The notes under the pieces were generated by a model, which saw only the letters and a program-made list of their open reading frames with translations, made no database searches and had not been told where the DNA came from. A program made the translations under genes and the position numbers. Source: Rikenellaceae bacterium (GTDB lineage Bacteria; Bacteroidota; Bacteroidia; Bacteroidales; Rikenellaceae). From it: a DNA stretch of 64,000 nt. Location: positions 1 through 64,000 of the forward strand of contig WRDF01000006.1 of NCBI GenBank assembly GCA_009783565.1, read 5' to 3'. Positions 9,839-19,483 of this stretch are shown one piece after another. Position 1 is the stretch's first letter. Every line of letters starts with the position of its first letter.

Positions 9839-11995
9839 ATGAAAACGTATAAAACGAACGAGATCAAAAACATTGTCCTTCTCGGAGCCTCCGGCTCCGG
9901 CAAAACCACGATGGCCGAAGCCATGGCCTACGAGGGTAAGGTGATCGAGCGACGCGGTACGGTCGAGAACGACAACACTATCTCCGACAACACCGAACTC
10001 GAACAGCTTTACAAACGCTCGATCTACCCGACGCTGCTCTTCACGGAGTTCAAGGATGCAAAACTTAATATTATCGATACGCCGGGGTCGGACGATTTCA
10101 GCGGCGGGCTTTTCTCGGCTTTCAAGGTAGCGGACGTGGGCGTGATGCTGTTCAATGCCCAGAACGGTTTCGAGGCCGGCAGCGAGATTCAGGCGCGTTA
10201 TGCACGCGCGATGAAAAAGCCTATCATCGCGGTGATCAACCAGTTGGACCATGAGAAGTCGAACTGGGAGACGACGCTGGAAGAGTTGCGCGGGGCCTCG
10301 CACGTGAAGCCCGTCATCGTTCAGTATCCGGTGAATCCGGGCCCGCAGTTCGATTCGTTCGTTGACGTGCTGATGATGAAAATGTATAAGTATAAGGACG
10401 ACAACGGCACGCGCGAGGAGTTGGACATTCCGGCATCGGAGATGGACAAGGCTACGGAGTTGAACAACGTTCTTATCGAGGCCGCAGCCGAGAACGACGA
10501 GGCGCTGATGGAGCTTTATTTCGAGAAGGGCACGCTGACGCAGGACGAGATGCGCAAGGGCTTGAAGGCAGGCCTTGCCAAGCGCGACCTGATACCGGTC
10601 TTCGTCGCATCGGGCAAGAAAAATATCGGCACGAAGCGTCTGATGGAGTTCATCGTGAACGTTGCGCCGAACCCGAAAGAGTCTCCGGCGTTCAAGACGG
10701 TCGAGGGCGAGGACATCGCAGCCGACGAAAACGGCCCGGCGGTGGCTTTCGTTTTCCGCAGCACGGTCGAGCAGCACATCGGCGAGATAAGCTACTTCCG
10801 CCTTATACGCGGCAAGCTCACGGAGGGCGCAGAAGTGGTGAACGCGCGCACGGGCAATAAGGAGAAGATCGCACAGCTGTTCGCCGTCGCGGGCAAGAAC
10901 CGCACGAAGCTGACCGAAATGTATGCCGGCGATATAGGTTGCACAGTCAAGCTGAAAGGCACGAAGACCAATGACACGCTGTGTAACTCGGCCGACGTGG
11001 TGCAGATCGAGCCTATACAGTTCCCTGACCCGAAGTACCGCGCGGCGGTGCGTGCGACCAAGCAGGGCGACGAGGAGAAGCTGGGCGAGATACTGAACAA
11101 ACTGTCGTTCGAAGACCCGACGATCCTTGTGGAATACTCGAAAGAGCTGAAACAGATGATCATTCAGGGGCAGGGCGAACACCATCTGAATATCGTGAAG
11201 TGGATTCTGGGGAACGTTTACAAGATCGACATAGAATTCTACGCGCCCCGCATCTCCTATCGCGAGACGATTACGAAAGTCGCCAACGCCGACTACCGCC
11301 ACAAGAAGCAGTCGGGCGGCGCGGGACAGTTCGGCGAGGTGCACCTGCTCATCGAGCCTTACACCGAGGGGATGCCCGAGCCGACGAAGTACAAACTCGG
11401 CGGCAAGGAAATCGCCGTGAGCCTCAAAGGCAAGGAGGAGATCGTGCTCGATTGGGGCGGAAAGTTGCAGTTCTACAACTCCATCGTGGGCGGCGCTATC
11501 GACGCACGTTTCCTGCCTGCTATATTAAAAGGTATAATGGAGAAGATGGAGGAGGGACCGCTCACCGGCTCGTATGCTCGCGACATCCGTGTGGTGGTCT
11601 ACGACGGAAAGATGCACCCGGTGGATTCGAACGAAATCTCGTTCAAACTCGCCGGCCGTAATGCGTTCAAGGAGGCATTCCGCACCGCCGCACCGAAGAT
11701 TATGGAGCCGATATATCAGGTCGAGGTGCTTGTGCCGTCGGACAAGATGGGCGACGTGATGAGCGATATGCAGGGCCGTAGGGCGATGATCGAGGGTATG
11801 ACTTCGGACAAGGGTTTCGACCGCCTTGTGGCGCGTGTGCCGCTGGCCGAAATGTACCGCTATTCGACGACGCTCAGTTCGCTCACGAGCGGCCGCGCGA
11901 CCTACTCAATGCGTTTCCTTGCCTACGAGCAAGTTCCCGCCGATGTGCAGGATAAGCTGCTCAAAGAATACGCCGATACGGACAAGGACGAATAG
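9839..11995 (+). CDS. fusA2: Elongation factor G paralogue (EF-G2 type, altered GTPase motifs)
   Basis: From ATG at 9839, 718 residues with the full EF-G layout (G domain, domains II-V). The P-loop is GASGSGKT (16-23), unlike AHxDxGKT of housekeeping EF-G. Switch I is not recognisable. The G3 motif reads DTPGSDDF with Ser84 where EF-G has the catalytic His (DTPGHVDF), and the G4 motif is NQLD rather than NKMD. Domain IV/V motifs are retained (SYRETIT, KQSGGAGQFGEV, QGRRAMIEGM). This matches the Bacteroides EF-G2 class, reported to support translocation without GTP hydrolysis under starvation. MKTYKTNEIKN is the conserved N-terminus, so longer starts to 9731 are not used. It stands alone, not near rpsL/rpsG. 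Confidence 0.9.
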   Translation: MKTYKTNEIKNIVLLGASGSGKTTMAEAMAYEGKVIERRGTVENDNTISDNTELEQLYKRSIYPTLLFTEFKDAKLNIIDTPGSDDFSGGLFSAFKVADVGVMLFNAQNGFEAGSEIQARYARAMKKPIIAVINQLDHEKSNWETTLEELRGASHVKPVIVQYPVNPGPQFDSFVDVLMMKMYKYKDDNGTREELDIPASEMDKATELNNVLIEAAAENDEALMELYFEKGTLTQDEMRKGLKAGLAKRDLIPVFVASGKKNIGTKRLMEFIVNVAPNPKESPAFKTVEGEDIAADENGPAVAFVFRSTVEQHIGEISYFRLIRGKLTEGAEVVNARTGNKEKIAQLFAVAGKNRTKLTEMYAGDIGCTVKLKGTKTNDTLCNSADVVQIEPIQFPDPKYRAAVRATKQGDEEKLGEILNKLSFEDPTILVEYSKELKQMIIQGQGEHHLNIVKWILGNVYKIDIEFYAPRISYRETITKVANADYRHKKQSGGAGQFGEVHLLIEPYTEGMPEPTKYKLGGKEIAVSLKGKEEIVLDWGGKLQFYNSIVGGAIDARFLPAILKGIMEKMEEGPLTGSYARDIRVVVYDGKMHPVDSNEISFKLAGRNAFKEAFRTAAPKIMEPIYQVEVLVPSDKMGDVMSDMQGRRAMIEGMTSDKGFDRLVARVPLAEMYRYSTTLSSLTSGRATYSMRFLAYEQVPADVQDKLLKEYADTDKDE

Positions 11996-12149: not shown

Positions 12150-12180
12150 TTTCCGGTTTCCGCCCCATGCGATACTTTTG
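12150..12180 (+). promoter_or_regulatory. Promoter for the Hdr-like cluster
   Basis: A -7 box TACTTTTG at 12173-12180 matches TAnnTTTG. A near-match -33 (tttc for TTTG) lies at 12150-12153 with a 19-bp spacer. Transcription would start about 20 nt before the HdrC-like ATG. Confidence 0.55.
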
Positions 12181-12207
12181 TCGCTGGGAGTTAAAGCAAG
12201 CTCTAAA

Positions 12208-12909
12208 ATGGGTAAGTATTTCGATAGGCTGATGGAAGACGTGCGCATGCGCGAGGGACTGCACTCGTGCATGAACTGCGGCGTGTGTACGGGTCTGTGT
12301 CCTGCGGCGGAGTTTTATGACTACGACCCGCGCCAGGTGGTGAACACCGTTCAGATGCGCGACGATGAAGAAATCGAGAAACTGCTGAAAAGCGACGCGC
12401 TGTGGTACTGCGGCGAGTGTATGTCGTGCAGGCCGCGATGTCCGAGAGGCAACACTCCGGGTTATGTAATACAGGCACTGCGCAAAATTTCGCAGGAAGA
12501 CGGGTTCTTTGCCGAGTCGGAAAAAGGACGCCAGCAGCTTGTTATCAAGCGCGTTATCGGCGGAAGTATCCTCAGCGAAGGCTACTGCCTGTATCCCAAA
12601 CTCGTCTCGCCTGAATTGCATCCCGAGCAGGGGCCGGTGTGGGCGTGGATACACGAGAACGATACGCAGATCTATCCGCAATTCAGTCCCAATTATCGGA
12701 AAGCAGGCCCCGGTCCGTTCCGCAAGATCAGCGAGGCGACGATGGATGAAATACGCAGGATCTTCGAGGTGAGCGGCGGAGCCAAGATGTTCGCCGCGAT
12801 CGAGGAACACTCCGAGCAGAAAGCGCGGGAGATGGGATTCGCCGGCGCGAACGATTCCTACATAGAGATGATATACACACACGATTCGGGAACGCACACA
12901 CAACGATGA
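12208..12909 (+). CDS. HdrC-like iron-sulfur subunit
   Basis: From ATG at 12208, 233 residues. Two ferredoxin motifs, Cys21/24/27/31 (CMNCGVCTGLCP) and Cys68/71/74/78 (CGECMSCRPRCP), are spaced as in HdrC, the electron-relay subunit of heterodisulfide reductase-like complexes. The C-terminal about 130 residues are longer than in methanogen HdrC and contain no further clusters. A TTG at 12178 would add ten residues but overlaps the promoter box, so the ATG is preferred. The gene overlaps the HdrB-like gene by 4 bp (ATGA), so the two are co-translated. It probably passes electrons between the FAD subunit and the HdrB-like site. Confidence 0.88.
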   Translation: MGKYFDRLMEDVRMREGLHSCMNCGVCTGLCPAAEFYDYDPRQVVNTVQMRDDEEIEKLLKSDALWYCGECMSCRPRCPRGNTPGYVIQALRKISQEDGFFAESEKGRQQLVIKRVIGGSILSEGYCLYPKLVSPELHPEQGPVWAWIHENDTQIYPQFSPNYRKAGPGPFRKISEATMDEIRRIFEVSGGAKMFAAIEEHSEQKAREMGFAGANDSYIEMIYTHDSGTHTQR

Positions 12910-13991
12910 AACGCACGAGTTGGCAGGAATATCAAAAGAAGGTTGCGGACGACGATTATTATTATGTCCGCAGTTGTATCCGGCAGAATTTTTTTCCGGG
13001 TTCGGAGAAAGCGTTCCTTAATATTATCGGTGGCGATCTGGGGCGCAGCATCTATGAAAATCCGGAGCATACGACATGTACCGGCATCGGTTACCACTCC
13101 GACATCGTGCCGATGGAGACGACGATGACGGTGGTGGCGCGTCAGTTTGCGCTGCTGACCGAATCGGGGCGCGAGAATCTGGCCGTGTCGTGCATCACGT
13201 CGTTCGGCCTCTACACGGAGATGTTGGAGACGTGGCACGAATTTCCGGAGACGGAGGAGCGCACGCGGCGTTACCTGAAAGAGGCGACGGGGCGCGAATT
13301 CCGCAAGCCTAAGAACGTCGCCCACACATCCGACATAATGTTCCATCACCGCGAGGAGATCGCCCGAAAGGTCAGGCACAGGCTTGTGAACGTCAAAACG
13401 GGCGAGCCGCTGCGGGTCGTCGATCATATCGGGTGTCACTATGCAAAGCTGTTCCCGAAGGTGGGCATAGGCGGCGCGGAATTTCCGCATGTGCTTGCCG
13501 GAATGGTCGAGGCGTGGGGAGGCGAGGTGATCGATTATCCCGAAAGGCGGCATTGCTGCGGGTTCGGATTCCGCAACTATCTGGTAAAAGCCAACCGTGG
13601 TTTTTCTATCGCCAACACTCACAAGAAATTGGAGTCGATGGCTCCTTTCAAGCCCGATTTTATCATCACGAACTGCCCCGGATGCCCGATGTTCCTCGAT
13701 CGGTGGCAGTACACCATTGCCGAGATGGAGGGCACGACGTATGGTCAGGACGGCGTGGGAATCCCGGCCCTTACGTATGAGGAGGTGGCGGGACTGGTCA
13801 TGGGTTATGACCCATGGGCCTTGGGTTTGCAGATGCATCAGGTGAACGTCGAGCCGCTGTTGGACAAGATGGGGGTGAAGTACGATCCGGCAGCCAAGTA
13901 TCTGGGCCTCAACGGTAAATATATCGGCAAGCCCGCCGATACGGCCGTGAACATAAACTGCGGGACGCAGCAGGTAATAAGAAATCTGTAA
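12906..13991 (+). CDS. HdrB-like CCG-domain subunit
   Basis: 361 residues. The C-terminal half has a full CCG motif: Cys177 (IGCHYAK), Cys217-Cys218 (RRHCCGFGF) and Cys257/Cys260 (TNCPGCP), the ligands of a non-cubane [4Fe-4S] cluster in HdrB. The N-terminal half, which in HdrB carries a second CCG motif, has only Cys24, Cys58 and Cys96, with Thr57 and Ser99 at positions usually Cys, so it looks degenerate. The N-terminal extension (KRTSWQEYQ...) and a C-terminal tail of about 90 residues are also unusual. It is the candidate disulfide- or heterodisulfide-reducing subunit. The physiological substrate is unknown because this organism type has no CoM/CoB. Confidence 0.85.
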   Translation: MKRTSWQEYQKKVADDDYYYVRSCIRQNFFPGSEKAFLNIIGGDLGRSIYENPEHTTCTGIGYHSDIVPMETTMTVVARQFALLTESGRENLAVSCITSFGLYTEMLETWHEFPETEERTRRYLKEATGREFRKPKNVAHTSDIMFHHREEIARKVRHRLVNVKTGEPLRVVDHIGCHYAKLFPKVGIGGAEFPHVLAGMVEAWGGEVIDYPERRHCCGFGFRNYLVKANRGFSIANTHKKLESMAPFKPDFIITNCPGCPMFLDRWQYTIAEMEGTTYGQDGVGIPALTYEEVAGLVMGYDPWALGLQMHQVNVEPLLDKMGVKYDPAAKYLGLNGKYIGKPADTAVNINCGTQQVIRNL

Positions 13992-13998
13992 AAGAGCC

Positions 13999-14997
13999 AT
14001 GAAGAATCATAAAGTGATAGTCGTCGGCGGCGGCGCGGCGGGGTTGCAGGCGGCGGCAACGTTGAAAGAGCTTGGCGTCGAGCCGCTTATCATCGAGCGC
14101 GAGATGCAGACGGGCGGAAAGGTAAGGCGTTGGCACAGGCTTTTTCCCGATTTCACGTCGGCGTCAGAGGTGTTGGCGACGCTTGAAAAAAACGCCGAAG
14201 GCATCGAAACGTTATGCGGCGTGATGGTCGACAGCATCGACGCGACGGGCGTTACGCTGGCCGGCGGACGGCACATAAAAGCCGATGCAATGGTTGTGGC
14301 TACGGGGTTCGACCTTTTTCGCGCCGAGCTGAAAGAGGAGTACGGTTACGGTATCTACGACAACGTTTACACGAGCGCCGATATCGAAGATATGCTCAAC
14401 GGCGATGGCGTGAGGCTTAAAGACGGCAGCGCGCCCGGGCGTGTCGCCTTTCTGCATTGCGTAGGCTCGCGCGACGAGAAAGTGGGGCAACCCCATTGCT
14501 CGCGCCTGTGTTGTATCACGGCTGTAAAGCAGGCGATGGAACTGCGTGAATCGTTCCCCGACGCTGAGATTTACAACTACTATATGGACATCCGCATGTT
14601 CGGTGCGGGTTACGAGGAAATGTACCGCTCTGCGCAGGAGGATGGCGAGGTACGTTTCGTGCGCGGGCGCATCTCGGAGGCAAGCCCGACGATCGACGGA
14701 CGTGTGCAGATCAAGGCCGAAGACACGCTGCTGGGGCGTCCGGTGAAGATGACCGTGGATATGCTCGTACTTGCCGTGGGTATGACGGCGGCAGAAAGTA
14801 ACGGGCGGCTCGGCGTGGGGTTGCAGAGTGGCGGGTTTATCGCGCCGCGCGATTTGTTCACGGGCGCGGTGTACTCTCCCGATGCGGAGAATATTTTCTA
14901 TGCCGGTTGCGCGACCGCCCCGAAAAACATCGGCGAAACTCTTAATGAGGCAACGGCGGCAGCGGTTAAAGCGGCGGAATTTTTGCTCGAAAAGTAG
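13999..14997 (+). CDS. Short HdrA-like FAD-binding subunit
   Basis: 332 residues, about half the length of methanogen HdrA. The N-terminal Rossmann motif VIVVGGGAAGLQAA (7-20) binds FAD, and an ATGFD motif (about 101-105) is present. The HdrA-specific iron-sulfur segment HCVGSRDEKVGQPHCSRLCC (Cys154, 167, 171, 172) followed by ITAVKQA is intact. A C-terminal ATAPKNIGETLNEA segment closes the FAD site. The extra ferredoxin domains of long HdrA are missing, and the separate ferredoxin gene at 15162 may supply them. It is the probable flavin site where electrons are split or merged. It lies 7 bp after the HdrB-like gene. Confidence 0.88.
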   Translation: MKNHKVIVVGGGAAGLQAAATLKELGVEPLIIEREMQTGGKVRRWHRLFPDFTSASEVLATLEKNAEGIETLCGVMVDSIDATGVTLAGGRHIKADAMVVATGFDLFRAELKEEYGYGIYDNVYTSADIEDMLNGDGVRLKDGSAPGRVAFLHCVGSRDEKVGQPHCSRLCCITAVKQAMELRESFPDAEIYNYYMDIRMFGAGYEEMYRSAQEDGEVRFVRGRISEASPTIDGRVQIKAEDTLLGRPVKMTVDMLVLAVGMTAAESNGRLGVGLQSGGFIAPRDLFTGAVYSPDAENIFYAGCATAPKNIGETLNEATAAAVKAAEFLLEK

Positions 14998-15020
14998 AGT
15001 TGTCTCACATAGATTATGCG

Positions 15021-15138
15021 ATGTGGTTTCAGGCACGCCGTCGGCGGCGGGTCGCCTGAGCGAAGCGAAGAAACAGCGACCCGCCGCGTGGGGCGGCGGC
15101 GTGCCGCGGCTTTCGCAAAAAACGCGAAAGCCCTTGCC
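15021..15138. repeat. Family D dispersed element, copy D1
   Basis: A GC-rich element (cacgccgtcggcggcgggtc, then ccgccgcgtggggcggcgg and gtgccgc) that ends in a hairpin with stem 15108-15116 / 15124-15132 and loop aaaaaac. It closely matches copy D2 at 23322-23444 except in the hairpin stem, which differs but still pairs. It lies between the HdrA-like and ferredoxin genes. Confidence 0.85.
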
Positions 15139-15161
15139 AGATAGAGATTGTTTGCGAAAAA

Positions 15162-15497
15162 ATGTCAGTAAACTTTGGATACACCATAAGTCTGCCGCGG
15201 GCGGTAGACCTCGATCGCAATGATTTTTCGGTCGCGCTCAGAGTATTGCGTCGCTTGCCCGAGCTTGAATCGTGTATCGGGTGTGGCGGCTGCACGGCGA
15301 CATGTACGGCTGGTGCGTTCACGGAATTCAACTTTCGGCGGGTACAGACCCTCGTGCGGCGCGGCGAATACGGCGGCGCATACCGCGAGATGAACAAATG
15401 TATGCTGTGCGGCAAATGCCGCTTAGTCTGCCCGCGCGGAATCAACACCCGCGCCGTGGTGATGACTATAAAACGCGAACTCGGCACAGGGTATTGA
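15162..15497 (+). CDS. 4Fe-4S dicluster ferredoxin (HdrC-like)
   Basis: 111 residues with two clusters, Cys38/41/44/48 (CIGCGGCTATC) and Cys80/83/86/90 (CMLCGKCRLVCP), spaced about 30 residues apart, as in HdrC and succinate-dehydrogenase-type ferredoxins rather than compact 2[4Fe-4S] ferredoxins. It follows the HdrA-like gene after a 164-bp gap filled by repeat D1 and precedes the membrane HdrDE-like gene by 24 bp. It is the likely wire between the soluble HdrABC-like part and the membrane protein. Confidence 0.85.
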   Translation: MSVNFGYTISLPRAVDLDRNDFSVALRVLRRLPELESCIGCGGCTATCTAGAFTEFNFRRVQTLVRRGEYGGAYREMNKCMLCGKCRLVCPRGINTRAVVMTIKRELGTGY

Positions 15498-15521
15498 TAA
15501 AGGCATTATTGGCCGAAAGAA

Positions 15522-17342
15522 ATGGATGGTTTTCTGAGATATTACGATCATTTCGTGTTACCGTTCACGGTGGGCATGTTGGTGCTGTTCACGGTAATCA
15601 TTTATAAATATGTGCGGTGGTTCGTGAGGATGCCCAAAGAGGATCGGCGGTTAGTGGCACGTGGGATATTTACCAAAAAAACGGCTCAGGCGACAGGTGA
15701 AGTGGCGTGCGAGGCGTTGGGACACAGGAAGATATGGCGCGTTAATCCGACGCTGGGGTACATGCACATGAGCCTGGCGCTGGGGTGGTTTCTGCTTATT
15801 GTAGTGGGATGGATCGAGGCGACGGTACATTTCAGCGGTGAGCTGACCGCGCCGCATACGCACGTATTCTTCAAATTTTTCGGTCCGACGTCGCATCCGA
15901 CCATGACAGGGAAATTCATCAATTTTATGATGGACTTCCTGCTGCTGTTCGTGCTTTCGGGGGTGGCGCTGGCATGGTTTAAGAGGCTGAGGTCAAAAGC
16001 GTTGGGGATGCGCCGCACGACACGTCACACGTTGTGGGACAGAGTGGCGATGACGGCGCTGTGGATGATCTTTCCGGTGCGTCTGGTGGCCGAAAGCGCG
16101 GCGAGCGGCATCGACGGCAGTCAGTCGTTCCTCACGGGGGCGATCGGGCGGTGGATGGTCGATGAGTTCGGGATAGCGCAGGTTTTCAATATTTCGGCCG
16201 TAGCATGGTGGGTATATTCGCTGGTGCTGGGCGCGTTTTTCCTGGCGATGCCGTTTTCGCGATACATGCACATTTTCACCGAGATACCGCTGATTTTCAT
16301 GCGGCGTTACGGTGTGCGGAGCGGCGAACGGGCGAGCAGTTTCGACCATTTTCAGATCGAGGCGTGCTCGCAGTGCGGCGTGTGCATCGACCCATGCCAG
16401 TTGCAGGCCGATGCGGGTATAAATCACGTACAGTCGGCATATTACCTTCGCGACCGGCGTTATAACAGGCTGCGGCGCGAGGTGGCGGAGAACTGCCTGA
16501 TGTGCGGACGCTGCGAGGCGAAGTGTCCTGTCGGCATCGAGTCTAACACGCTGAGGCTCAACAGTCGCAGCCGGCTTAACGACCAGCCCGCCGAGGGGCG
16601 TTACGAATACCTGCGCGGCGTGGACGGGTCTTGCGGCGAGGGTCGAACGGGGTATTTTGCGGGCTGTATGACCATGCTCACTCCGGCGACGTTGAGCGCG
16701 ATGGAGAAGGTTTTTGCGGCGGCGGGCGAGGATGTGTGGTGGGCCGACCGCAACGGTGGAGCATGCTGCGGACGGCCTCTGCGGCTGCTGGGCGAGATCG
16801 CCGCAGCGCAAAGAATGACCGACCATAACGTCGAACTTATTCTGCGTCAGGGAGTTACAATACTCGTCGTGTCGTGTCCGATATGCCTGCGTGCATTTCG
16901 CGGTGAGCCGCGTCTGGCGGATATCGAGATACTTCATCATTCGCAATATATATTGCGGCTCGTCGAGCAGGGGCGTATCTTAATGAGCTCGGACACAATG
17001 AGTTACGTCTATCACGATCCGTGTGAACTTGGGCGCGGATGCGGTATCTACGACGAGCCGCGAGAGGTTCTGCGCCGTCTCGGAACACTCGCCGAGGTGT
17101 CTCAAAACCGTGAACATGCGTTCTGCTGCGGCGGCAGCCTCGCCAACGCTGAAATTGACTCCACGCAACAAGACGCTATTGCACGCACACTGATGGCGCA
17201 ATTCGCGGCGACCGATGCGCGGGTGATCGTCACGGCCTGTCCGCTATGTAAAAAAATGCTGGCGCGGCACTCTTCACGCGCACGCGTCGCCGATATTTCG
17301 GAGGTGGCGGCCGCACGCGCAGTCGCTGCGGCGACACCGTAA
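15522..17342 (+). CDS. Membrane-bound HdrDE-like fusion (cytochrome b-type / 2x4Fe-4S / two CCG domains)
   Basis: 606 residues. Residues 1-260 hold about five transmembrane helices of the nitrate-reductase gamma / HdrE type, with histidines in the membrane part (for example GYMHMSLALGW, and SRYMHIF) that may ligate haem b. Next come two 4Fe-4S motifs (CSQCGVCIDPC and CLMCGRCEAKCP). The C-terminal HdrD part carries two complete CCG motifs (AGCMTM, GGACCGR, SCPICLR; then HDPCELG, AFCCGGS, ACPLCKK). This architecture resembles membrane quinone- or methanophenazine-linked reductases. Here it would exchange electrons between menaquinone and the soluble HdrABC-like subunits. The direction of flow cannot be told from sequence. 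Confidence 0.87.
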   Translation: MDGFLRYYDHFVLPFTVGMLVLFTVIIYKYVRWFVRMPKEDRRLVARGIFTKKTAQATGEVACEALGHRKIWRVNPTLGYMHMSLALGWFLLIVVGWIEATVHFSGELTAPHTHVFFKFFGPTSHPTMTGKFINFMMDFLLLFVLSGVALAWFKRLRSKALGMRRTTRHTLWDRVAMTALWMIFPVRLVAESAASGIDGSQSFLTGAIGRWMVDEFGIAQVFNISAVAWWVYSLVLGAFFLAMPFSRYMHIFTEIPLIFMRRYGVRSGERASSFDHFQIEACSQCGVCIDPCQLQADAGINHVQSAYYLRDRRYNRLRREVAENCLMCGRCEAKCPVGIESNTLRLNSRSRLNDQPAEGRYEYLRGVDGSCGEGRTGYFAGCMTMLTPATLSAMEKVFAAAGEDVWWADRNGGACCGRPLRLLGEIAAAQRMTDHNVELILRQGVTILVVSCPICLRAFRGEPRLADIEILHHSQYILRLVEQGRILMSSDTMSYVYHDPCELGRGCGIYDEPREVLRRLGTLAEVSQNREHAFCCGGSLANAEIDSTQQDAIARTLMAQFAATDARVIVTACPLCKKMLARHSSRARVADISEVAAARAVAAATP

Positions 17343-17437: not shown

Positions 17438-17469
17438 GTTGCGCGATTCATAAAAGAATTGTACTTTTG
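17438..17469 (+). promoter_or_regulatory. Promoter P1 of the tRNA-tuf operon
   Basis: The -33 element gttg at 17438-17441 and the -7 box TACTTTTG at 17462-17469 are 20 bp apart, fitting the Bacteroidetes sigma-70 consensus. Confidence 0.6.
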
Positions 17470-17524
17470 CCCCGCGTTCATAAAAATATAAACGAGGAGG
17501 GGTGGTGATATTTTTGTCGCGACG

Positions 17525-17556
17525 CTTGCAGGAATAAAAAATTATTCGTAATTTTG
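17525..17556 (+). promoter_or_regulatory. Promoter P2 of the tRNA-tuf operon
   Basis: The -33 element cttg at 17525-17528 and the -7 box TAATTTTG at 17549-17556 have a 20-bp spacer. Transcription would begin about 10 nt upstream of tRNA-Thr. Confidence 0.65.
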
Positions 17557-17721: not shown

Positions 17722-17804
17722 GGGAGAATACCAGAGTGGCCAAATGGGGCAGACTGTAAATCTGCTGACGTACGTCTTCGGTGGTTCGAATCCATCTTCT
17801 CCCA
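17722..17804 (+). tRNA. tRNA-Tyr (anticodon GTA)
   Basis: The acceptor gggagaa / ttctccc, anticodon stem cagac-tgtaaat-ctg (anticodon GTA), long variable arm (ctgacgtacgtcttc) of a class II tRNA and T-loop ttcgaat are all present. The discriminator is A, as expected for bacterial tRNA-Tyr. Confidence 0.95.
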
Positions 17805-17943
17805 CAAAGATTTTCAATGATCGAATGCCCGAAGGGCATCGGTTTGCAGAATAACACCGCCCATCGAGCAAGCTCGAAATGGGCGGGGTCATTCTGCAAA
17901 CCGACAGACTTGCGAAGCAAGTTCGATTCGTTGAAAATCTTTG
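17805..17943. ncRNA. Structured element predicted to fold as a four-way junction
   Basis: Between tRNA-Tyr and tRNA-Gly, visible pairings are P1 17805-17817 with 17931-17943 (13 bp, exact), 17820-17825 with 17922-17927, P2 17826-17830 with 17834-17838 (loop GAA), P3 17839-17852 with 17891-17904 (14 bp, exact) plus 17857-17864 with 17879-17886, an end hairpin 17865-17869 with 17872-17876, and P4 17909-17913 with 17917-17921 (loop GAA). P2 and P4 have different sequences but the same length and loop. It may be a processed RNA in the tRNA transcript or a DNA repeat; no homologue can be tested here. Confidence 0.6.
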
Positions 17944-17963
17944 TAAGGGTCGCGCCGCGAGGC

Positions 17964-18100
17964 CGATGGATGGGCGAGCGTTTTTTTGCGAGCCAATCCT
18001 TGTGAAGCGATGGATGGGCGAGCGTTTTTTTGCGAGCCAATCCAATGGAATTGCGAAAGTCGATGGATGGTCGATGTGAGCGAAGCGAACGAGCCAATCC
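17964..18100. repeat. Tandem direct repeats between tRNA-Tyr and tRNA-Gly
   Basis: Two identical 36-bp copies (17964-17999 and 18008-18043, containing gatggatgggcgagcg and tgcgagccaatcc) repeat with a 44-bp period. A third, diverged copy at 18061-18100 keeps both ends (cgatggatgg and cgagccaatcc). Confidence 0.85.
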
Positions 18101-18124: not shown

Positions 18125-18197
18125 GCGGAAGTAGCTCAGTCGATAGAGCATCAGCCTTCCAAGCTGAGGGTCGCGAGTTTGAACCTCGTCTTCCGCT
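18125..18197 (+). tRNA. tRNA-Gly (anticodon TCC)
   Basis: The acceptor gcggaag / cttccgc, anticodon stem tcagc / gctga with loop cttccaa (anticodon TCC, codon GGA), and T-loop tttgaac are complete. The discriminator is T and no CCA is encoded. It lies about 100 bp before tuf. Confidence 0.95.
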
Positions 18198-18298
18198 CTG
18201 GGAACATAATGGTCGCCAGCCGATGGAGAACATCCGTCTGCCGGTGGGCGGTGTCATTAAAAATAGAGGTAAAACACAACAAAAAAATAATTTCAGCT

Positions 18299-19483
18299 AT
18301 GGCAAAAGAAAAATTTGACAGGTCCAAACCGCACGTAAACGTCGGTACTATCGGGCACGTAGACCACGGTAAGACTACTCTCACCGCAGCGATCACCAAC
18401 GTACTTGCGAACAAGGGTTTCTCTGAAAAACGTTCGTTCGACTCGATTGACAACGCTCCGGAAGAGAAAGAGCGCGGTATCACAATTAACACTTCGCACG
18501 TCGAGTACCAGACCGCAGGCCGCCACTACGCTCACGTAGACTGTCCCGGTCACGCCGACTACGTTAAAAACATGGTTACGGGTGCTGCCCAGATGGACGG
18601 TGCGATCCTTGTGGTTGCCGCTACGGACGGCCCGATGCCCCAGACTAACGAGCACGTTCTGCTGGCGCGTCAGGTGAACGTTCCGAAGATCGTGGTGTTC
18701 CTGAACAAATGCGACATGGTGGACGACACCGAAATGCTCGACCTCGTCGAGATGGAAGTGCGCGACCTGCTCAGCAAATATAACTTCGACGGTGACAACG
18801 CTCCGGTTATCCGCGGCTCGGCGCTCGGCGGTCTGAACGGCGAACCGCAGTGGGAAGAGAAGATCATGGAGCTGATGGATGCAGTGGATACTTTTATTCC
18901 GATTCCCCCGCGCGAGAACGAAAAACCGTTCCTCATGCCGGTCGAAGACGTATTCTCGATCACGGGTCGCGGTACGGTTCTAACGGGCCGTATCGAAACC
19001 GGTATCGTCCACGTGGGCGACCCCGTAGAGATCGTAGGTCTCGGCTCGACGCAAACCTCGGTATGTACGGGCGTTGAAATGTTCCGCAAATTGCTCGATC
19101 AGGGCGAGGCGGGAGACAACGTAGGTCTGCTGATGCGCGGTATCGACAAGAAAGAGGTTAAGCGTGGTATGGTCGTTGCCAAACCCGGCTCGATCAAACC
19201 TCACACCAAGTTCGAGGCCGAGGTGTATATCCTCAGAAAAGACGAGGGTGGCCGCCACACGCCGTTCCACAACAAGTATCGTCCGCAGTTCTATCTGCGC
19301 ACGCTCGATATTACGGGTGAGGTAGACCTTCCGGCAGGTGTGGACATGGTGATGCCCGGCGACAACGTGACGATTACCGTTACGCTGATCTACGAAGTGG
19401 CTATCAACGTGGGCTTGCGTTTCGCTATCCGCGAAGGCGGTCGCACGGTAGGTGCAGGCCAGATCACGAAAATTCTTGAATAA
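18299..19483 (+). CDS. tuf: Elongation factor Tu
   Basis: From ATG at 18299 ([27 protein letters not shown]), 394 residues, the standard EF-Tu length. All GTPase motifs are present: GHVDHGKT, the switch region with [14 protein letters not shown] and NKCD. Domains II and III follow, with an intact C-terminus ([10 protein letters not shown]). EF-Tu delivers aminoacyl-tRNA to the ribosome. An upstream open frame to 18104 runs through tRNA-Gly and is not coding. The tRNA-tuf-tRNA-Trp-secE arrangement matches the conserved bacterial tufB-type locus. A perfect hairpin follows the stop. Confidence 0.98.

Follow-up and report, generated by a model that had tools for sequence, protein, structure and literature searches.

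In Bacteroidota, a class of cruciforms flanking tRNA genes almost certainly exists, and one of its members lies in the window analyzed here, a 64,000-nt stretch of a Rikenellaceae genome (contig WRDF01000006.1, assembly GCA_009783565.1). The window copy displays a four-way junction made of a closing stem, hairpin 1, a long arm and hairpin 3; it begins at the 3′ end of tRNA-Tyr, inside the limit of about 10 nt from a tRNA or tmRNA that the class allows, and its arm tip carries extra bases on the 3′ side, here a 2-nt AA bulge, with a CAAG instead of a CTTG loop. No earlier description of a tRNA-flanking cruciform was found in the open-access literature. Mobile elements land at tRNA genes more often than anywhere else, and these genes also rank among the most transcribed. 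In Bacteroidota, little of the DNA immediately following them has been annotated, and since the letters of the element vary freely, sequence searches are blind to the class. A recurrent, oriented module with conserved structure would be a new feature of how Bacteroidota end, insulate or process tRNA transcripts or, alternatively, a structured DNA site of a new type.

The element is part of an operon in the order tRNA-Thr, tRNA-Tyr, element, tRNA-Gly, tuf, tRNA-Trp, secE, nusG, in which the names of genes other than tRNAs were assigned from sequence. The features of the locus are the following.

17462..17556, + strand: three Bacteroidetes-type -7 boxes TAnnTTTG, at 17462, 17509 and 17549 (consensus match only)
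17722..17805, + strand: tRNA-Tyr (gta), the host gene, its 3′ end abutting the element (ARAGORN, Rfam)
17804..17824, + strand: 5′ strand of the closing stem (ACAAAG...), from the last bases of tRNA-Tyr (fold)
17825..17839, + strand: hairpin 1, with a C-GAA-G triloop and here without a T-run (fold)
17840..17903, + strand: long arm (fold; covariance-model match over 17804-17944 with models R1 and R2)
17862..17881, + strand: arm tip, with a 5-bp stem, a CAAG loop and a 2-nt bulge on the 3′ side
17908..17922, + strand: hairpin 3, with a C-GAA-G triloop (fold)
17923..17944, + strand: 3′ strand of the closing stem (...CTTTGT) (fold)
17950..17960, + strand: small hairpin TCGC-GCC-GCGA (sequence)
17968..17999, + strand: downstream hairpin GGAT-..GAGC..GCGA..-AATCC, copy 1 (sequence; also behind other copies of the element)
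18012..18043, + strand: downstream hairpin, copy 2, with the same sequence as copy 1
18065..18100, + strand: downstream hairpin, copy 3, containing GCGAAGC
18125..18198, + strand: tRNA-Gly (tcc), downstream gene (ARAGORN)
18299..19483, + strand: tuf (EF-Tu), downstream gene (ORF with internal start MAKEKFD; identity from sequence)

The four-way junction, which had been folded by eye in the preliminary description, is also the minimum-energy fold of 17795-17955, at -85.7 kcal/mol versus a mean of -41.6 +/- 3.7 kcal/mol for shuffles of the same stretch (z = -12.1; 0 of 200 equally stable). In this fold, 17804-17824 pairs with 17923-17944 to form a closing stem of 21 pairs with one bulge, within which the exact 13-bp block CAAAGATTTTCAA/TTGAAAATCTTTG noticed earlier is present. 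As tRNA-Tyr ends at 17805, the closing stem starts at the discriminator base. The span first proposed, 17805-17943, places the junction correctly but is short by 1 nt at each end, the true ends being 17804 and 17944. Hairpin 1 reads ATGCCC-GAA-GGGCAT and hairpin 3 ACTTGC-GAA-GCAAGT, while the long arm is built of 13 bp, two small mismatches, 7 bp, a 2-nt bulge, 5 bp and the CAAG loop. No Rfam family reaches gathering level over the element, tRNA matches falling only at the four tRNA genes; the idea of a tRNA mimic finds no support, neither the Rfam tRNA model nor any other family matching there.

The same architecture can be found right behind tRNA-Tyr in the window's genus (G001, and G002 and G005 with two tRNA-Tyr loci each), in one termite-type member of the Rikenellaceae (L012/L084) and in Rikenella (L080, L123, L124 and, partly, L122). 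Despite this common architecture, the arm sequences of the Rikenellaceae tRNA-Tyr copies are nearly unrelated; the ACAAAG/CTTTGT ends of the closing stem are common to the window copy and those of its relatives. Many other Rikenellaceae have a short, unrelated and unstructured spacer in place of the element after tRNA-Tyr.

Two covariance models, a type of search suggested in the preliminary description, retrieved new copies, all of them behind tRNAs. R1, built from three relatives only and with no tRNA gene inside the model, matches the window copy at E = 1.2e-9 and further copies down to 4e-6; most copies are matched on either strand, the element being close to a palindrome. Over 268 genomes of the family, its new copies lie only behind tRNA-Thr(ggt) and tRNA-Ser(gct). 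In the genome with the tRNA-Thr copy, the tip motif revealed another copy behind tRNA-Pro(ggg), and the ACAAAG/CTTTGT ends are common to tRNA-Tyr and tRNA-Pro copies. R2, built from nine trimmed copies with the window excluded, matches the window copy at E = 8.7e-9; over 395 genomes of the phylum it added just two copies, one following tRNA-Val(gac) and the other tRNA-Leu(taa), in a whole-genome search that loses even the window copy after the first filter and whose negatives mean little. A pattern combining the T-loop of a tRNA with the tip AAGCTTGCTT has 28 matches in 20 genomes, against a handful for the reversed pattern, and the matches at tRNA ends (Pro, Val, Leu, Asp, Ser, Arg), together with one behind tmRNA, mostly fold alike. 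By construction, this pattern search favors tRNAs, a bias that the R1 and R2 searches do not have. Both kinds of search bear out the tight tie to the tRNA 3′ end, and the homologues looked for near tRNA genes in Bacteroidetes do occur, behind tRNAs for Tyr, Thr, Ser, Pro, Val, Leu, Asp and Arg. The exact tip pattern alone was rejected as evidence, given its chance matches in coding DNA (L140, L143, L144, L147). The cruciform behind the tmRNA gene (L151, 1154-1680) is of the same design.

The frequency of the element differs between genomes. By inspection, about 14 of 40 tRNA loci in G525 have a full element or a branch-migrating variant, the remaining ones having simple terminators or a position inside operons. 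With a strict detector, whose cut-off was reached by no shuffled flank, the element was detected at 6 of 38 flanks in G525, at 1 of 33 in the window genome G000 (tRNA-Tyr only) and at 0 of 38 in G521; no further copies were found in G000. An inverted-repeat scan of 1.18 Mb of G525 gave seven places, three of which immediately follow tRNAs and one of which follows a displaced tRNA 3′ half; its control preserves inverted repeats, and the scan serves as a list without statistics. Carriage by viruses was also considered and rejected, only one of four pattern matches in viral contigs (L328) being a true copy, which follows a tRNA-Pro 3′ half at the border of a prophage. On this viral contig, the cruciform (10370-10740) is directly outside the tRNA-Pro 3′ half, and a complete tRNA was not found there. 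Likewise, in L172 of G525 (1401-1660), a cruciform is directly outside a tRNA-Met-like 3′ half, and again no complete tRNA was found. Each apparently occupies the outer att end of an element that has integrated.

Selection on structure had been argued from side stems that keep pairing with different sequences, and this argument is strengthened by the R1 match to the window copy, by the pair changes among copies and by strand exchange. Across 26 copies, the two strands of the closing stem pair at a mean of -20.8 kcal/mol with their own partner versus -7.1 kcal/mol when swapped between loci, and those of the long arm at -23.3 versus -7.9 kcal/mol. In the trimmed alignment A7, paired cells amount to 97.8%, compared with about 45% in slid versions, and in 47 of 52 pairs both partners vary; as A7 was hand-trimmed to the folded parts from each copy's own fold, its pair counts lean towards structure, and the strand swap is the fairer control. 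The arm tip has a CTTG loop in 17 of 27 copies, a frequency inflated by the fact that most copies were found through a CTTG tip, and TTTA, CTCG or similar in the others. In 24 of 27 copies, the 3′ side of the tip, which is the one farther from the tRNA, has more unpaired bases, and the searches did not select for the side of the bulge. G.U pairs account for 51 of 1297 pairs (3.9%) when the + strand is folded and 25 of 1264 (2.0%) for the - strand, compared with 10% in tRNAs; this strand bias leans mildly to a folded + strand, but it is weak, comes partly from two copies and is not decisive.

In the 15 non-Tyr copies that were scored, hairpin 1 and the following T-run make up the pattern of a forward intrinsic terminator, and hairpin 3 with its preceding A-run that of an intrinsic terminator on the reverse strand (15/15 in both cases), with 6-8 T in the 9 nt after hairpin 1 and 5-8 A in the 9 nt before hairpin 3. 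The Rikenella tRNA-Tyr copies keep these runs, whereas the tRNA-Tyr copies of the window's genus are without them, having 3-5 T in 9 after hairpin 1. The window copy, where these counts are no higher than 4 T in 9 and 5 A in 9, does not show the bidirectional pattern of a T-run after hairpin 1 and an A-run before hairpin 3. In most other copies, hairpin 1 should halt transcription ahead of the arm. Near the window operon, all three TAnnTTTG boxes are upstream of tRNA-Thr. The interval from the element to tRNA-Gly is free of them in the window, L127 and L130, and so is that from the element to tuf in the window, from which it follows that the window element is probably transcribed; in the window's genus, transcription probably reads through it into tRNA-Gly and tuf, as judged from the arrangement of these signals. 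Copies retaining the junction after loss of the T-runs provide a natural test separating termination from a role of the junction.

While the class itself is well supported, its function has to be inferred. The explanation that we favor, tentatively, is that the module is a two-direction terminator and insulator, the window copy being a read-through derivative that would serve as a folded spacer. The usual design comprises the tRNA, 0-9 nt, a first half consisting of stem-a, hairpin 1 and the T-run, the long arm with its conserved tip, and a second half consisting of the A-run, hairpin 3 and stem-a′. Hairpin 1 and its T-run would end the tRNA transcript, hairpin 3 and its A-run would block, on the opposite strand, transcription arriving from downstream, and the module would in this way shield a highly expressed tRNA gene from either side; all parts can also pair together as the four-way junction. 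In the window's genus, where the T-run has been lost and the element is located between tRNA-Tyr and tRNA-Gly/tuf, transcription probably passes through. Within the pre-tRNA, the junction would then fold flush with the acceptor end and form a rigid spacer, which tRNA 3′ processing and double-strand cleavage would probably separate from the tRNA. Several observations speak against the terminator/insulator explanation. T-runs alone need no four-strand junction pairing, a simple terminator suffices for most tRNAs, an unstructured short spacer occupies the same place in many Rikenellaceae, and the rarity of G.U pairs relative to tRNAs is unusual in a selected RNA. Moreover, an arm beyond a terminating hairpin 1 would rarely be transcribed and its tip is still conserved and oriented, something that termination by itself leaves unexplained.

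This conservation of a tip that should be little transcribed, lying as it does between opposed terminators in most copies, is what a recognition site at the DNA level would account for. Such a site, the main rival though an unlikely one, would have the arm extruded as a DNA hairpin or cruciform and the tip (short stem, CTTG-type loop, 3′-side bulge) bound by a protein, e.g., for chromosome structure or for fork or integrase traffic, with the terminators keeping transcription off the arm. The pairing is almost wholly Watson-Crick, as expected under this explanation, and where integration has taken place at tRNA 3′ halves, copies are located immediately outside the integration point (L328, L172). 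The strict form GGATCA-stem-TAATCC of a hairpin trailing the elements also has a single occurrence in the 1.18 Mb of G525 that were covered, where it follows a copy of the element and lies 131 nt from a tRNA-Pro. However, the twofold excess of G.U on the + strand leans to folding of that strand, the window copy is probably transcribed and no binding protein is known. Supercoiling is positive ahead of an active tRNA gene, which disfavors extrusion. In its extended form, with oriented DNA cruciforms at tRNA 3′ ends across the phylum, shielded by terminators and with a conserved bulged tip read by a putative factor acting at tRNA genes, the proposal is about as unlikely.

The preliminary description had also considered a mobile palindrome, and an element, mobile now or formerly, that inserts right behind tRNA genes has a small probability. 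Its presence is indeed patchy among close relatives at the same place, it has several tRNA hosts and a fixed orientation, and the ACAAAG/CTTTGT ends recur behind tRNA-Tyr as well as tRNA-Pro. In contrast, the arms are wholly different between loci of one genome, and near-identical pairs, i.e., recently copied arms, are confined to paralogous tRNAs (tRNA-Tyr and tRNA-Ser). Neither a transposase partner nor a target duplication turned up, the window genome is without a second copy, and the outer stems carry the terminator sequence of their own locus, which points to local maintenance. A stable small RNA that tRNA 3′ processing would cut out of the tRNA-Tyr transcript has a slim chance, even though the window element is probably transcribed and folds very stably from the discriminator base on: in most copies a terminator would end the transcript ahead of the arm, the unconserved arm sequences leave no seed region, and a matching Rfam family is absent. 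Most improbable is that convergent intrinsic terminators became palindromic through replication slippage and intrastrand template switching, leaving a functionless junction, since neutral correction would erase the conserved tip and its one-sided 3′ bulge, both of which span families, and since the junction is retained in window-genus copies after loss of the T-run, although the hairpin-1 and hairpin-3 terminators of each locus have base sequence in common and the low G.U content is consistent with sequence correction of palindromes.

Several known systems resemble the element in part. Like bidirectional or convergent Rho-independent terminators, most copies have a GC-rich hairpin and a T-run on each strand at gene ends; unlike them, the element consists of two separate hairpins and a long third arm with a conserved, oriented tip, all parts can pair as one four-way junction, and the window copy is without T-runs. 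REP and BIME sequences are likewise intergenic palindromes with bulged or mismatched stems and a possible role at the DNA level, but the element is tied to tRNA 3′ ends, is neither dispersed nor repeated and has no shared stem sequence. A dispersed repeat of the REP type was rejected for the window genome, with no second copy in G000 and 1 of 33 tRNA flanks. In Escherichia coli, the rtT RNA derives from repeats behind tyrT and is a structured spacer released behind tRNA-Tyr; the element differs in having no repeat of the tRNA 3′ end, another architecture and no gathering-level Rfam match. Integron attC and other folded single-stranded DNA recombination sites combine a conserved loop and one-sided bulged bases with a variable stem. 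The element resembles attC in its conserved loop and one-sided bulge, a resemblance only, as it has here neither a recombinase nor an array. Clostridiales-1 RNA (RF01699), which also has a long arm with an apical GCUUGC, gives a minus-strand match of 28.6 bits over 17770-17909. Homology was rejected, the gathering score being 48 and none of eight other loci scanned matching; these loci gave weak matches to miRNA hairpin models, of the sort that any long stem tends to attract. Closest in the literature are palindromic candidate RNAs of Bacteroidetes, 80-132 bp in length and mostly overlapping intrinsic terminators, from which the element is set apart by their described gene neighbors, namely TPR, ruvA, tonB or phage genes and not tRNAs (Fremin and Bhatt, 2021; PMC8040213).

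Behind the window element, more hairpins follow, at 17950-17960 and then as three copies within 17968-18100. The small hairpin at 17950-17960 is TCGC-GCC-GCGA in the window versus CCC-GCC-GGG in relatives, a paired change. The GGAT..GAGC..GCGA..AATCC hairpin, present three times in the window, trails most copies of the element, including those of other genera, at times in tandem (L124, L126, L128). The tandem units of the window (17968-18100) have the form GGATGG..GAGC..GCGAGCCAATCC with a tandem G.A motif, two of them being identical over 32 nt. At the second tRNA-Tyr locus of G005 (C73; L013, L128), several hairpin units and runs of N are found at a contig end, where repeats may lie behind a possible assembly problem. 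Just upstream of the tRNA operon, at 12178-17342 of the window, an operon for heterodisulfide-reductase-like iron-sulfur and flavin proteins can be read from the ORFs.
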